DNA of 64,000 nucleotides from Anaerosoma tenue. Its GTDB lineage: Bacteria; Actinomycetota; Coriobacteriia; Anaerosomatales; Anaerosomataceae. The stretch lies in NCBI RefSeq assembly GCF_023161965.1, contig NZ_JALNTY010000002.1, positions 274,552 through 338,551 of the forward strand, written 5' to 3'. A program made the translations under genes and the position numbers. Positions 57,813-63,622 of this stretch are shown piece by piece. The notes below the pieces were generated by a model. That model searched no databases and had not been told where the DNA came from. It saw nothing but the letters and a program-made list of their open reading frames with translations. Each line of letters starts with the position of its first letter. The stretch's first letter is position 1.

Positions 57813-58219
57813 TGTGGATAATGTGGAAAACCCAGGACGTGAGCGTGCCCGGCCTGTGGATAACCACTCACGCCTCATTGTGAGGAGCACCGGCCCTTTG
57901 CTAGAATCAGCGTCGTTCCACGGAAACGCCATCGGCGACATGATCCTTGAAAAACCCCTGGTAAGAAGCGGTATGGCGCGGAGTCGCCTCTTGGACTCCG
58001 ATTCCACTGTCCCCGGTTATCCACAGTCATGTCAACCCTTCTTCGGTCCTTCTTCCACATCCGGCTGCCCGAGCTCTACAGCGAATCAGTTCCCCACAGG
58101 GCCCGGCAGCGCGGAAAGCCCCGGAGAGGCGTCGGACCACCGTAACCTGCATGTTCGATGGATGTTCGGTGTGTGTTGGTGGAAACGTTCTCCACATATG
58201 TGGAAAGCATTGTGGATAA
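57813..58219. other. oriC part 1: DnaA-box cluster
   Basis: Four perfect TTATCCACA boxes lie in the 57645-58373 gap: 57813-57821, 57855-57863 and 58211-58219 (read as TGTGGATAA) and 58017-58025 (as TTATCCACA). Weaker boxes lie at 58188-58196 and 58199-58207. The rest of the gap holds the rpmH promoter and no credible gene. The strand of genes switches here. This marks the origin region. Confidence 0.88.
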
Positions 58220-58373
58220 CTAAGGAAGCCGCTGTTCAATGAATGTCACATCTTCTGCCTCAACATGTAAACGAGGCTTCCGGATACGCCTTCTACCTGG
58301 GGTTTCTCAGATCGGTCCGAATCGCGTCGTTGTGGACTATCGTGTGGAACGCTCGATATAGCGAGGGGGTTTG

Positions 58374-59222
58374 GTGGAGTCTTCTTACGATGAGGCCGCT
58401 GTCTCGACACCGGCGACATATAGCGATCCACCCTCTGCCCCTACGGCGCACAGCGATGGGGCAAGCGGTGTCGATGCTGCCACACCCAACCCTGCGCTCA
58501 TCGCGGTCTACGACAACCTGACGTCGTCGCCCCGTGTCGAAAGGGTGCGGGGAACCACCCCCCGGGAGTTGATCGATGACCTCTCCACCCGCACCTACCA
58601 GATCTCGCATGAGGCTGGCGGGGAAGTGCCGTACATGGTCATCCGGGAGATAGTCGAGAACTTCATACATGCGGGTTTCGACGAGGTCGTCGTCAGCGTC
58701 CTCGATGGCGGTAACACGCTGCGCTTCGCCGACCAGGGACCGGGGATCCGTGACAAGGAGCGTGTGTTCCTTCCGGGTTTCACCACCGCCACCGATCACA
58801 TGAAGCGTGTCATCAAAGGGGTCGGTTCCGGTCTTCCTGTCGCTCGCGAGTGCCTCACTTTCTCTGCGGGAACCATCGAGATCGACGACAACCTGGGGGC
58901 GGGAACCGTCGTGACCTTGTGCATGTCCCCTAAGAGCCCACGCACCGACGCACCGACGCCCCGGGATGACCGGGTCACCCCACTGCCGATGACAGACATC
59001 CCCGACCTGTCCCTCCGCCACAAGAAGGTCATGTCGTTGATCATGGAGGTAGGGGCTCTTGGCCCGTCGGTCGTTTCTCGCGAACTTGGCGTGGGTCTAT
59101 CGACGGCATATCGGGACCTTGAACACCTTGCCGCTCTCGGCCTGGTGGAGGCCGACGTGACAGGCAAGCGCGCACTGACCGATGCAGGTATCCAGTGCCT
59201 CGACGCACTGTTTGGAAGGTAG
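58374..59222 (+). CDS. GHKL-type ATPase fused to winged-helix domain
   Basis: The 282-residue protein has a disordered start (1-65), a histidine-kinase-like GHKL ATP-binding domain of the RsbW/SpoIIAB kind (N box REIVENFIHAGF, DQGPGI, then GVGSGLPVA; residues 70-180), and a C-terminal winged helix (HKKVMSLIMEVGA, about 205-280). It lacks the phosphoacceptor His domain, so it is not a sensor kinase. No named family is recognised. GTG at 58374 has a GAGGGGG site. It ends 14 bases before dnaA, so the two are probably cotranscribed. A role in initiation control is inferred. Confidence 0.8.
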   Translation: MESSYDEAAVSTPATYSDPPSAPTAHSDGASGVDAATPNPALIAVYDNLTSSPRVERVRGTTPRELIDDLSTRTYQISHEAGGEVPYMVIREIVENFIHAGFDEVVVSVLDGGNTLRFADQGPGIRDKERVFLPGFTTATDHMKRVIKGVGSGLPVARECLTFSAGTIEIDDNLGAGTVVTLCMSPKSPRTDAPTPRDDRVTPLPMTDIPDLSLRHKKVMSLIMEVGALGPSVVSRELGVGLSTAYRDLEHLAALGLVEADVTGKRALTDAGIQCLDALFGR

Positions 59223-59236
59223 GGGGAGATACGTAG

Positions 59237-60610
59237 ATGTTGGATGTCCAGCAGGTATGGCAGGAGACGCTTGATGTCGTGCGGGGTGAGCTCAACACAC
59301 CGACGTTCAAGACATGGTTCGAGCAGACTGCGCCGCTCGGGATCATCGAGCACGAGATGCTCATCGGTGTTCAGAACGACTTCGCCCGAGACTGGCTGGA
59401 GTCGCGATACTCCGGCCTTCTCGCTTCCGCTCTGACGCAAGTGACCGGATCACCGATGGTCGTGCGCTTCAGCGTCCCCGGGGACACCAAGAGCGGCGCA
59501 CAGTCGGCCACGGCAGTCGAGGTGGTGGTACCGGAGCCGGCAGCTCCATCCCCTGAGAGACAGCGGGGCCCTGCTCCCGAGTTGGAGCCGAACTGCACGT
59601 TCGACTCGTTCGTGGTCGGCCCCTCGAACCAATTCTCGTACCATGTCGCTCTTGCAGTCGCCGAGGCCCCCGGAACCGCGTACAACCCTCTCTTCATCTA
59701 CGGCGGGGCCGGGCTCGGCAAGACGCACCTCCTGCAGGCCATCGGAGCGTATGTGCGCACGAGCTACCCCCACCTACGCGTCAAGTACGTCACGAGCGAG
59801 CAGTTCACCAACGACTTCATCAAGTCGATCGGTGACCGCGACAAGAACAGGACAGAGGGTTTCAGGCGAGCATACCGTGAGAACGACGTCCTCTTGATCG
59901 ACGACATCCAGTTCATCCAGGGCAAGGAGACGACCCAGACCGAGTTCTTCCATACATTCAACACTCTCCGGGAAGCCGGCAAACAGATCGTCATGACTTC
60001 GGACAGACCACCCTCCGAGATCGGCAACATCGAGGAGCGCCTCCGTACGAGGTTCGGCTGGGGTCTGATCGCGGATATCCAACCACCCGATCTTGAGACA
60101 CGTATCGCCATCCTTAGGAGAAAGGCCGAGATGGCACGTGTGAACGCTCCTGATGACGTCCTGGCGTTCATCGCCGAACGACTCTCGAGCAACATCCGGG
60201 AGCTTGAGGGGGCTCTGGTCCGGGTCGCCGCTTACAGCTCGGTCTCACAGCGTCCGATCGACCTCGACCTGGCTCAAAGCGTCCTAAAGGACACCTTCCC
60301 TGAGCATTCAGTCAAACCTATCTCGATATCCACCATCCAACAGGAGGTCTGTAGGTTCTATCAGATATCCCGGGCCGACCTTGTTGGAGACAAGCGCTCC
60401 CAAGCGATCGCGTTCCCTCGGCAGGTGGCGATGTACTTGTCGCGAGAACTCACAGATCACTCTCTGCCGAAGATCGGTGGCGAGTTTGGCGGGCGTGACC
60501 ACACGACTGTCATGTATGCGAACTCCAAGATCCAGCGCCTCATCAACGAACAGCGGGATGTCTACAACCAGATCCAGACACTCACCAACCTCATCAGGCA
60601 GAAGAACTGA
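59237..60610 (+). CDS. dnaA: Chromosomal replication initiator DnaA
   Basis: The 457-residue AAA+ initiator has domain I (residues 1-80), a linker (80-115), Walker A GGAGLGKTHLL (about 156), Walker B LLIDDIQF, sensor motifs, and the domain IV signature (GGRDHTTVMYA) that reads DnaA boxes. ATG has an AGGGGGAG site. It has no own clear promoter and sits between two box clusters. Confidence 0.98.
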   Translation: MLDVQQVWQETLDVVRGELNTPTFKTWFEQTAPLGIIEHEMLIGVQNDFARDWLESRYSGLLASALTQVTGSPMVVRFSVPGDTKSGAQSATAVEVVVPEPAAPSPERQRGPAPELEPNCTFDSFVVGPSNQFSYHVALAVAEAPGTAYNPLFIYGGAGLGKTHLLQAIGAYVRTSYPHLRVKYVTSEQFTNDFIKSIGDRDKNRTEGFRRAYRENDVLLIDDIQFIQGKETTQTEFFHTFNTLREAGKQIVMTSDRPPSEIGNIEERLRTRFGWGLIADIQPPDLETRIAILRRKAEMARVNAPDDVLAFIAERLSSNIRELEGALVRVAAYSSVSQRPIDLDLAQSVLKDTFPEHSVKPISISTIQQEVCRFYQISRADLVGDKRSQAIAFPRQVAMYLSRELTDHSLPKIGGEFGGRDHTTVMYANSKIQRLINEQRDVYNQIQTLTNLIRQKN

Positions 60611-60614
60611 TACA

Positions 60615-60830
60615 CGTGGATAACCTGTCTACGGGTGTGTGGAATCACGGCGGTTCATGTGGATATATAGCAGGGTGTGTGGATATGTGGATGAACAGGC
60701 ACATTTCCCACACAAGCGCTCCACAAGCGAAGTAGTACCGGTACGCAGCGGGAATAGGGTGTTTCCACATCATCCACAGGCCCTATTACTACTGCTACTG
60801 TGATTGATAGATAAGAAACATTAGAAGAAA
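60615..60830. other. oriC part 2: DnaA boxes and DnaA-trio unwinding element
   Basis: The dnaA-dnaN gap holds near-consensus boxes at 60615-60623, 60658-60666, 60678-60686, 60686-60694, 60761-60769 and 60770-60778. Then comes GGCCC (60779-60783), then triplets CTA TTA CTA CTG CTA CTG (60783-60800), and an AT-rich stretch. Box, GC patch and triplets match the Bacillus-type basal unwinding system, whose triplets bind DnaA on one strand. Confidence 0.8.
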
Positions 60831-60839
60831 GGGTTCGAT

Positions 60840-61940
60840 ATGAAGATCTCGATCGCACGGGGCGAACTGCTCGACGCACTGTCGACCGTGTCCCGGGGTC
60901 TCTCCTCGAGAACCACACTCCCTATCCTCTCAGGGATACATGTGTCGACCCATGGTGAAGACGCCCTGTTCCAGGCTACTGATCTGGAAGTCTCGGTGAA
61001 GACTTCATGTAAAGCCCGTGTTGAGGATGCCGGGCAGACCGTCCTTCCCGGGAAGCTGCTGACGGACATCGTCCGGAGCCTGCCTGAGGCTGCGATCACG
61101 ATCGCTTCTGATGTCTCAGGCACAGCGAACATCACGTGTGGGCAGTCGTCCTTCACCATGAAAACGCTACCCCCTGACGACTACCCGAAATTCCCTGAGG
61201 TCACCCCTAATGAAAGGGTCTCGCTACCCACGGAGGAGTTCAGCCACGTTGTCCACCAGGTCTCACGTTCAGTGAGCAGGGATGAGACACGACCGATCCT
61301 TACAGGGATCCTTGTGGTGGTAGAAGACGGGACCTTGAGGATGGTCGCCACCGACTCGTATCGGCTCTGCATCAAGGAAGCCGCGGTGAGTGGGGTGTCG
61401 GGTGGGATCGAACTCGTCGTTCCCGGAAAAGCGATGGAGGATGTGGCTAAACTGGTGGGTTCGGCTGAAGCCGTGTCCATCGGTGTCTCTGAGAATCAGG
61501 TCGTATTCACGTTCGGGAACACCACGTTCATTTCAAGGCGCATAGAAGGGACGTTCCCGAACTACCGGCAACTACTGCCGAAGGAGCTCGTCACCAGAGC
61601 TGTCGTCGATAGAACGGAGTTCCTTGAGGCGGTGAAGCGCGTTTCGCTCATGGCACAACACAACTCACCGATCCGTATACGGGTGAACGCGGGAAACCAC
61701 ACCCTCACGCTCTCCGCTGCGTCTCAAGACATCGGTGAGGCAAGTGAGGACATCCAGGTGACTCCCGAGGGTGAGGATATCGAGATAGCCTTCAGCCACG
61801 CATATCTTCTCGACGGTGTCGCTGTGGCCGAAGGGGACACCATCGCGCTTGAGACCACCAGCCCGCTGAAGCCGGGAGTGATCAAGTCGGCGGACAAGGA
61901 TGATTTCACCTACCTGCTTATGCCGGTCCGTATCGGATAG
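60840..61940 (+). CDS. dnaN: DNA polymerase III sliding clamp
   Basis: The 366-residue beta clamp has the three-domain clamp fold (start MKISIARGELLDAL, DDYPKFPE linker) and the C-terminal LLMPVRIG end. ATG has an AGAAAGG site. The leader overlaps the origin unwinding element. Confidence 0.97.
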   Translation: MKISIARGELLDALSTVSRGLSSRTTLPILSGIHVSTHGEDALFQATDLEVSVKTSCKARVEDAGQTVLPGKLLTDIVRSLPEAAITIASDVSGTANITCGQSSFTMKTLPPDDYPKFPEVTPNERVSLPTEEFSHVVHQVSRSVSRDETRPILTGILVVVEDGTLRMVATDSYRLCIKEAAVSGVSGGIELVVPGKAMEDVAKLVGSAEAVSIGVSENQVVFTFGNTTFISRRIEGTFPNYRQLLPKELVTRAVVDRTEFLEAVKRVSLMAQHNSPIRIRVNAGNHTLTLSAASQDIGEASEDIQVTPEGEDIEIAFSHAYLLDGVAVAEGDTIALETTSPLKPGVIKSADKDDFTYLLMPVRIG

Positions 61941-61955
61941 ACGCCACGGCCACAC

Positions 61956-63056
61956 GTGCACATCACACGAATCGCACTACGCGACTATCGGAACCTGGAG
62001 TCCTTCGAGCTCTCTCCAGAGAGGGCACTCACCGTGTTGGTTGGACCGAACGGTGCAGGGAAGACGAACACGATCGAAGCGATACAGATACTGTGCACAG
62101 GTTCGTCGTTCCGAAACCCTGTCTGGGAGGACTTGGTCCGGTGGGGGAGTGATATCACGAACGCGAACATGGTGGTGGAGGGTGAATCCCCACCCCTCGC
62201 GGTGAATCTACGCATCGGCAGATCCGGATCCCGGATATGGAAAGTCAACGACGTCACGAAACGACGCTTGTCGGACGCCACCCGATTCGTCCCTGTCGTA
62301 GCCTTCACCCCGGACGACCTATCGATGGTGAAAGGGTCCGCAGAACAGCGTCGAGCGAGCATCGATGCGCTCGGTGAACAGTTGTCGGTGGTCTACGGTT
62401 CACTGCGAAGAGACTACGCCCGGGTCGTGCGTCAACGGAACAGACTACTGCGTGATGGGACGACACCCGAGGTCCTGAGACCGTGGAGCGCACAACTCGT
62501 GGCCCTTGGAGCGCGTCTCCACACCCACCGCAGGAGGCTCCTTAGACGAGTGGCGGATAGCATGCGCCCGGCGTACGCGCGCCTTTCGGGGGGCGAGGAG
62601 CTTGAAGTACGGATGGAGGACCGGTGTGGGGTAGGGGTTTCTGTGGTCGATACGGATATCGATCACGAGACCGTTGCCGGATGCATGGACGAGCAGATAC
62701 GCACCCGGTCAACACAGGAGATCGACCGGAGAGTCAGTCTCGTCGGCCCGCACCGGGATGATGTCGTCTTCACCATCGAAGGACGGGACGCGCGGTCGTT
62801 CGCGAGCCAGGGTCAGCAACGGACCCTCGCCCTCGCGTGGAAGCTCGCCGAGGTCGAGGTTGTGCGCTCGGTGTTGTCGAAGACCCCGGTCCTGCTCCTT
62901 GATGACGTCATGTCCGAGCTTGACCAGGACCGGAGGGCCGCGCTCACGGCGGTCATGCAGCAGGACATCCAGACCTTCGTGACAACGACCAACACCGGAT
63001 ACTTCGACCCGGCGCTGCTCAGATCCGCCGCTGTCGTGGACATGGGGGAGCGCTGA
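61956..63056 (+). CDS. recF: DNA replication and repair protein RecF
   Basis: The 366-residue SMC-like ATPase has Walker A (GPNGAGKTN, about residues 31-39), the signature SQGQQRTLALAWKLAE and Walker B (LLLDDVMSELD). Start is GTG, with no strong ribosome site. It loads RecA at gaps. The stop overlaps the next start (TGATG). Confidence 0.95.
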   Translation: MHITRIALRDYRNLESFELSPERALTVLVGPNGAGKTNTIEAIQILCTGSSFRNPVWEDLVRWGSDITNANMVVEGESPPLAVNLRIGRSGSRIWKVNDVTKRRLSDATRFVPVVAFTPDDLSMVKGSAEQRRASIDALGEQLSVVYGSLRRDYARVVRQRNRLLRDGTTPEVLRPWSAQLVALGARLHTHRRRLLRRVADSMRPAYARLSGGEELEVRMEDRCGVGVSVVDTDIDHETVAGCMDEQIRTRSTQEIDRRVSLVGPHRDDVVFTIEGRDARSFASQGQQRTLALAWKLAEVEVVRSVLSKTPVLLLDDVMSELDQDRRAALTAVMQQDIQTFVTTTNTGYFDPALLRSAAVVDMGER

Positions 63057-63622
63057 TGGCCCGCGCGAAGAAGACCCAACGTCTGGGAGATGTGGTCGAC
63101 ACCACTCTCAAGCGGATCGACGTTTCGGGCAGGCGCCATGGAGCACGGGTGGTGGGTGTGTGGTCTCAGGTGGTGGGTCCAGAGATCGCCGGACACACAC
63201 AAGGGTTCGCGCTGCGGGACGACCGGCAGATGGTGGTGTTCGTCGACAGCCCGTCGTGGGCCAACGAACTCTCCCTCATGGCTGGTGATCTCGTGTTCAG
63301 GCTCAATGAACACCTCGGTGAAGATACAGTGAAGACGCTTCGTTTCACTGTGTCACGAAGGGTCGCGGAGGAGCGGTCATGGGAGGCGACGCTGTCTTCC
63401 AGCCAGGAGGAGTACCTGCCCGACGAGGTGACGCCTGAGCGCCTGAGCGAGGTGGAGCGGATGCAGGTCGAACACGTGGCGTCGGTCGTCACGGACCCCG
63501 AGTTGCGAGAACTCGCGGAGAGGGTCATGACGAAGGATCTGGAGCTCAAGAAAGGGGCCAGGAAGGCCGCCTCAGGGAAGGGTTCTGCAGACAACGACAC
63601 AAGCACTCCACACGAGGGTTAG
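63056..63622 (+). CDS. DUF721 (DciA-like) protein
   Basis: The 188-residue protein has the DUF721 core (residues 15-105, [17 protein letters not shown], then [11 protein letters not shown]). The family includes DciA, the helicase operator used by bacteria without DnaC. Here DnaB has no DnaC or DnaI partner nearby, so a DnaB-loading role is plausible. The C-terminal third is charged and probably disordered. Confidence 0.85.

Follow-up and report, generated by a model that had tools for sequence, protein, structure and literature searches.

A conserved GHKL-ATPase/winged-helix gene lies beside dnaA between the halves of a predicted bipartite oriC in Coriobacteriia and may regulate replication initiation

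In B. subtilis and C. difficile the replication origin is bipartite, with DnaA-box clusters situated in the rpmH-dnaA and dnaA-dnaN gaps, the latter also containing a DnaA-trio next to a box, and with dnaA alone between the two halves. The DnaA-trio was defined as 3'-GAT-5' repeats adjoining a DnaA box (PMC6669920), and unwinding in the dnaA-dnaN gap of C. difficile was shown in vitro (PMC7561715). Little is settled about initiation control beyond E. coli and B. subtilis, and no Hda, YabA, SirA or DiaA homologues have been identified in mycobacteria (PMC5720831). An overlooked gene of the dnaA region, encoding DciA (Rv0004), turned out to encode a replication protein (PMC5720831), which is a precedent for the gene described here.

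The studied origin region of Anaerosoma tenue, a member of class Coriobacteriia, was located in a 64 kb stretch of DNA (the window) in the order rnpA and rpmH (L34; 57501..57689) on the minus strand, a gap of roughly 680 nt, an ORF of 283 aa (58371-59222, plus strand), dnaA (59237-60610, plus strand; TIGR00362, E 1.3e-164), a gap of 229 nt and dnaN (60840..61940, plus strand). The divergent rpmH flanks the origin on its other side. In contrast to B. subtilis and C. difficile, a second gene, referred to here as ghkl, precedes dnaA. The two-gene unit proposed in the first-pass annotation was recovered: only 14 nt (59223-59236, plus strand), carrying a GGGGGAG-type ribosome site of dnaA, separate the genes. 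The ghkl ORF begins with TTG at 58371, whereas the alternative GTG at 58374, which follows GAGGGGG, is the likelier start, preferred because of the comparison with relatives. A promoter-like site of the unit, TTGTGA-18-TAGAAT (57878..57907, plus strand), was assigned by consensus match only, and TAGAATC was found at the same place in relatives. No RNA was detected by Rfam at the gathering level. A dciA-like gene, assigned by eye from its position and sequence, was noticed separately at 63056-63622 between recF and gyrB; DciA belongs to a different family from the ghkl protein.

DnaA boxes were searched for in the whole window as TTWTCCACA with at most one mismatch, which resulted in 21 boxes compared with 5.65 expected and with a maximum of 12 in 100 shuffles. 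Eight of them were in the rpmH-side gap (57813..58219; at 57813, 57822, 57855, 58017, 58051, 58188, 58199 and 58211) and seven in the dnaA-dnaN gap (60615..60778), each of the latter with one mismatch, so that the two clusters enclose ghkl and dnaA as had been claimed from the first reading. The remaining six boxes, outside both gaps, were at about chance level. All four perfect TTATCCACA boxes were in the rpmH-side gap (0.05 expected for the window), and across the order the TTWTNCACA boxes of this half had a mean of 3.4 per gap against 0.03 expected. Three of the boxes form the triple NNTTCCACA-2-TGTGGAAAG-3-TGTGGATAA (58188..58219), an arrangement kept in nearly all members of the order and in several other classes. 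The form TTTTCCACA-2-TGTGGAAAG-3-TGTGGATAA was observed with near-fixed spacing across orders and classes (loci L038-L057, L107, L109, L111, L218 and L223).

A DnaA-trio array, absent from the first-pass annotation and found in the follow-up, was located in the dnaA-dnaN gap 4 nt after the box TCATCCACA. It reads CTA TTA CTA CTG CTA CTG (60783-60800, plus strand), the opposite strand being 3'-GAT AAT GAT GAC GAT GAC-5'. The pattern of trio beside box occurred in none of 5000 shuffles of this gap, and similar box and trio arrays were present on the same strand of the dnaA-dnaN gap in several relatives (including L038, L039, L043, L048, L052, L054, L055, L087 and L206-L208). The array of C. difficile, CACCTACTACTATTACTACTATGA, is closely similar (PMC7561715). 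With box clusters on both sides and the trio array, a hallmark of unwinding sites, the region therefore looks like a real bipartite oriC, which is well supported by the sequence, and the dnaA-dnaN half is most likely the site of the predicted unwinding.

Only a single copy of ghkl was found in its own genome, where the next match reached 29 bits. In class Coriobacteriia a homologue was detected in 269 of 298 genomes (E <= 1e-6). Among the 120 class genomes with both genes listed, ghkl immediately preceded dnaA in the same orientation in 111, adjoined it across the point where a circular record begins in 5, was on a different contig in 2, and was divergent but adjacent in 2 belonging to one genus. 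For the assessable genomes of the class this gave 116 of 118 upstream and codirectional, with the other two divergent yet adjacent. Homologues outside the class were obtained by scanning named genomes and by a profile search at the level of the phylum. They were found in deep lineages of Actinomycetota, Candidatus Hakubella among them, in Sysuimicrobiota (CSP1-3, ANGP1), and in a further phylum, where 26 of 249 genomes had one and two records bear the titles Clostridia and Bacillota. Among stretches of sufficient length to judge, the adjacency to dnaA was 20/20 in this second phylum and applied to all 18 informative stretches of other families. When the surroundings of distinct homologues were read, 170 of 175 directly adjoined dnaA and the other five were cut by the sequence end, the examined loci being no random sample. 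The conservation next to dnaA in Coriobacteriia, named beforehand as a check, was thereby confirmed and extends far beyond the class, with ghkl keeping its dnaA-side position in three phyla or more. One actinobacterial genus with genomes of 6-10 Mb (f43 of the phylum search) gave only weak kinase-level matches; the ghkl family is therefore not universal in that phylum.

Concerning losses and REARRANGEMENTS, 25 genomes of the class were listed without ghkl. Of these, 14 were also without dnaA in the assembly, 2 had dnaA at a contig edge, and 9, from several lineages, had an intact rpmH-gap-dnaA-dnaN order from which ghkl was cleanly absent (L078-L081, L083, L084, L086, L245 and L246). The gene is near-universal in the class and not indispensable: with at least nine clean losses, it is therefore not needed everywhere. 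In 13 loci ghkl and dnaA were inverted together, as one block, with respect to rpmH and dnaN (L060, L066, L070, L091, L120, L133, L139, L142, L143, L148, L154, L163 and L164). Among the inverted blocks checked, the dnaN-ghkl side carried most of the box matches, and the interval from dnaA to rpmH had none. A reversal of ghkl alone, producing a divergent ghkl-dnaA pair, was observed in L063, L064 and L146 (two Curtanaerobium entries and a close relative). The description of the gene as locked inside the origin is consequently slightly overstated, given its reversed orientation in one small group and the clean losses from at least nine genomes.

The rpmH-side gap contains also a repeated non-DnaA motif, approximately RAAAACnSCWGnTCA (57949-57968, 58223-58242 and 58281-58300, plus strand). 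The motif was present in gap 1 of L038-L057 and of many other loci from several lineages, and one copy was usually situated shortly past the last box of the triple-box cluster. A matrix was trained on loci of the order, and expected numbers were taken from simple within-segment shuffles. It found 48 sites in the training order, where 0.7 would be expected; the observed and expected numbers were 21 and 2.2 for other orders of the class, 9 and 0.7 for other lineages, and 14 and 0.9 for the second phylum. In all these counts the orthologous sites of related genomes are not independent. The motif was absent from the dnaA-dnaN gap (1 site against 0.3 expected). In the loci that had lost ghkl 15 sites were found against 0.6 expected, and the motif was kept in 7 of the 9. 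This retention marks it as an origin feature and gives no evidence for a binding site of the ghkl protein. As a target of the winged helix the motif was rejected: it persists where ghkl is lost, occurs also in other phyla and is not enriched to any comparable degree in the dnaA-dnaN gap. The analysis revealed no DNA site tracking the presence of ghkl.

The GHKL and winged-helix architecture read from the sequence in the first-pass annotation was corroborated by profiles and by structure prediction. The GHKL ATP-binding domain (aa 88-185; 58632..58925, plus strand) matched HATPase_c in the window protein with E 5e-11 and contains an N-box (E93/N97/H100/A101), D121xGxG125 and G150xGxG154. The winged helix-turn-helix (aa 213-281; 59007..59213, plus strand) has the recognition helix STAYRDL and the wing K266-R267. 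In the window protein alone the winged-helix match of IclR/TrmB type, covering roughly aa 215-262, was sub-threshold, but 35 of 37 homologues matched HTH_IclR (E <= 0.1). The AlphaFold2 model comprised two well-formed domains with a mean pLDDT of 85, GHKL at aa 42-185 and the winged helix at aa 213-281, and a low-confidence N-terminus. The winged-helix fold had a pLDDT of 91, and its structural matches were MarR-type regulators, Csa3 and the centromere-binding protein AspA. In 101 sequences from all groups N97, H100, D121, G123, G125, G150, G152, G154 and G178 were invariant, and the catalytic-type E93 was kept in 98%. The corresponding values for R248, K266 and R267 of the winged helix were 90%, 89% and 94%. 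For the recognition helix, STAYRDL or a closely related form was seen in the order and in certain further families, with different sequences in the others.

The median identities over 119 non-redundant loci were 0.41 for the ghkl protein, 0.35 for DnaA and 0.38 for DnaN, by which measure the ghkl protein is conserved to much the same degree as DnaA and DnaN. In the mirror-tree comparison the ghkl distances followed those of DnaN (r 0.76). The correlation was greater with dnaN than with dnaA, so vertical descent is shown and no specific contact with DnaA. The ghkl gene tree recovered most taxonomic groups, and the pattern suggests an old, mostly vertically inherited core gene.

On these sequence-based grounds we give slightly better than even credence to the ghkl protein being a nucleotide-binding, DNA-binding regulator of replication initiation which works at its own locus. 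It probably helps to set the timing of the replication start. From the observed place between the oriC halves, the unit with dnaA, the conservation, and the intact ATP-site and basic winged-helix residues, we infer all the biochemical steps. The GHKL domain would bind ATP and, because the catalytic-type Glu is kept, may hydrolyse it. The ATP state would alter how the protein is shaped or dimerises and thereby the seating of the winged helix on the rpmH-side origin gap, which in turn may affect dnaA transcription and/or the assembly of DnaA on the DnaA-box cluster, and cotranscription would match the level of the ghkl protein to that of DnaA. The points in favour are the adjacency to dnaA, the single copy, the conservation, the kept residues, the winged-helix fold, the persistence of ghkl and dnaA together through block inversion, and the lack of YabA above cut-off. 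YabA (PF06156) had no match in the ghkl protein and none above cut-off in its own and 20 related genomes, whereas it was detected in the B. subtilis and L. lactis controls. Against this regulator role are the retention of the suspected motif in 7 of the 9 loss loci and the at least nine genomes without ghkl.

A different partner-based function, in which the GHKL domain would bind or phosphorylate DnaA or another origin- or sigma-type partner in the manner of RsbW/SpoIIAB and the winged helix would be a mere tether to the origin, is considered unlikely. The proteins share the N-box Glu, Asn and His and similar GFT/STA and GxGxGLP regions, and anti-sigma F structures matched aa 84-180 of the ghkl protein with E 0.003. 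Moreover, the nearest non-orthologous profile matches in one phylum include HATPase_c_2 (RsbW/SpoIIAB-type) proteins of 143-172 aa, which have the ExxxNxxIHA N-box and the GFSTA...GMGLP features in common with the ghkl family. Small RsbW-type HATPase_c_2 proteins with an N-box and lid resembling those of the dnaA-linked family were seen in the second phylum (L248-L252; G832, G761, G687, G907 and G805). Such proteins are a possible source of the GHKL domain of the ghkl family. However, the Pfam match of the family is HATPase_c (37/37 members) and not HATPase_c_2 (2/37, best E 0.006), and with rnpA, rpmH, dnaA and dnaN as the conserved neighbours the ghkl-dnaA unit leaves no space in which a STAS or sigma gene could fit. 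No partner came to light. RsbW/SpoIIAB proteins are about 145 aa in length, lack a DNA-binding domain and have sigma/STAS partners, whereas the ghkl protein has a winged helix and lies beside dnaA. The identity of the 283-aa protein as an RsbW/SpoIIAB anti-sigma factor was rejected on the Pfam result, the winged helix and the neighbours. The earlier label RsbW-like thus stands as to the small HATPase_c_2 ORFs among the best non-orthologous matches and fails as to the Pfam family and the protein's own DNA-binding domain.

Other known architectures were compared as well. A MutL/gyrase-type GHL ATPase was rejected, as the ATPase domain is followed by a winged helix and not by a transducer domain; MutL structures matched about aa 82-142, and the MutL/gyrase-type catalytic Glu corresponds to E93. 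The best whole-chain structural match was DIP2311 of Corynebacterium diphtheriae (PDB 3lmm; E 1.4e-6, 272 columns), at a modest TM-score of 0.46 and an rmsd of 9.9; the alignment would fit a GHKL-like fold with a winged helix behind it. DIP2311 is COG2865-type, a family carrying an N-terminal AlbA_2 domain, and we know of no tie of its family to dnaA. No Pfam match to AlbA_2 was found in the ghkl protein, in which aa 1-40 are of low confidence and without structure. Csa3, the second-best fold match of the winged helix, and other sensor-wHTH regulators have a comparable build, a small-molecule-binding domain joined to a MarR-like winged helix; in Csa3, however, the sensor is CARF and the function CRISPR regulation, with GHKL in its place in the ghkl protein. 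PADLOC gave only winged-helix matches (CARF/Csa3/CasR models).

A purely local transcription factor, repressing its own ghkl-dnaA operon without a direct role in orisome assembly, would agree with the MarR/IclR/TrmB-type winged helix, the recurrent promoter-like site and long leader upstream, and the 14-nt spacing to dnaA. Autorepression itself does not explain the invariant ATP site, and in one small group ghkl is flipped and still adjoins dnaA; we regard this explanation as somewhat less probable again than a partner regulator. Still more doubtful is a housekeeping regulator with distant targets, linked to dnaA only by a shared need for steady expression near the origin. Origin synteny is often conserved from dosage alone, which favours this explanation and counts against a role in initiation, but the linkage has survived block inversion and spans at least three phyla, and the conservation is on a par with that of DnaA and DnaN. 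That the ORF is degenerate or misread, or that it encodes a common type of orphan histidine kinase, is hardly credible: the modest HATPase_c and sub-threshold HTH scores of the window protein alone are outweighed by the ATP-site residues kept in 101 sequences and by the AlphaFold2 model, and an orthodox sensor kinase was rejected because neither a HisKA match nor a conserved, phosphoacceptor-like His outside the N-box was found in the family.

The regulator of initiation proposed above shares its process with the DnaA regulators YabA, Hda, SirA, DiaA/HobA and Soj, whose folds are, to our knowledge, unrelated to that of the ghkl protein. No paper describing the gene was found in the open-access literature. 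More tentatively, and with rather less than even confidence, ghkl could be the first described member of an ancient class of initiation regulators encoded at the origin itself, ATP-gated, DNA-binding and cotranscribed with dnaA between the origin halves, through which the nucleotide or cell-cycle state would set initiation in several phyla, possibly replacing the DnaA regulators of E. coli and B. subtilis. Because its dnaA-side place is held in at least three phyla and its conservation is at the level of DnaA and DnaN, ghkl is a strong candidate for a missing factor of initiation control. Cultured carriers, e.g. Eggerthella, Slackia and Collinsella, make its role testable, and the clean losses are natural knockouts which offer a ready comparison.
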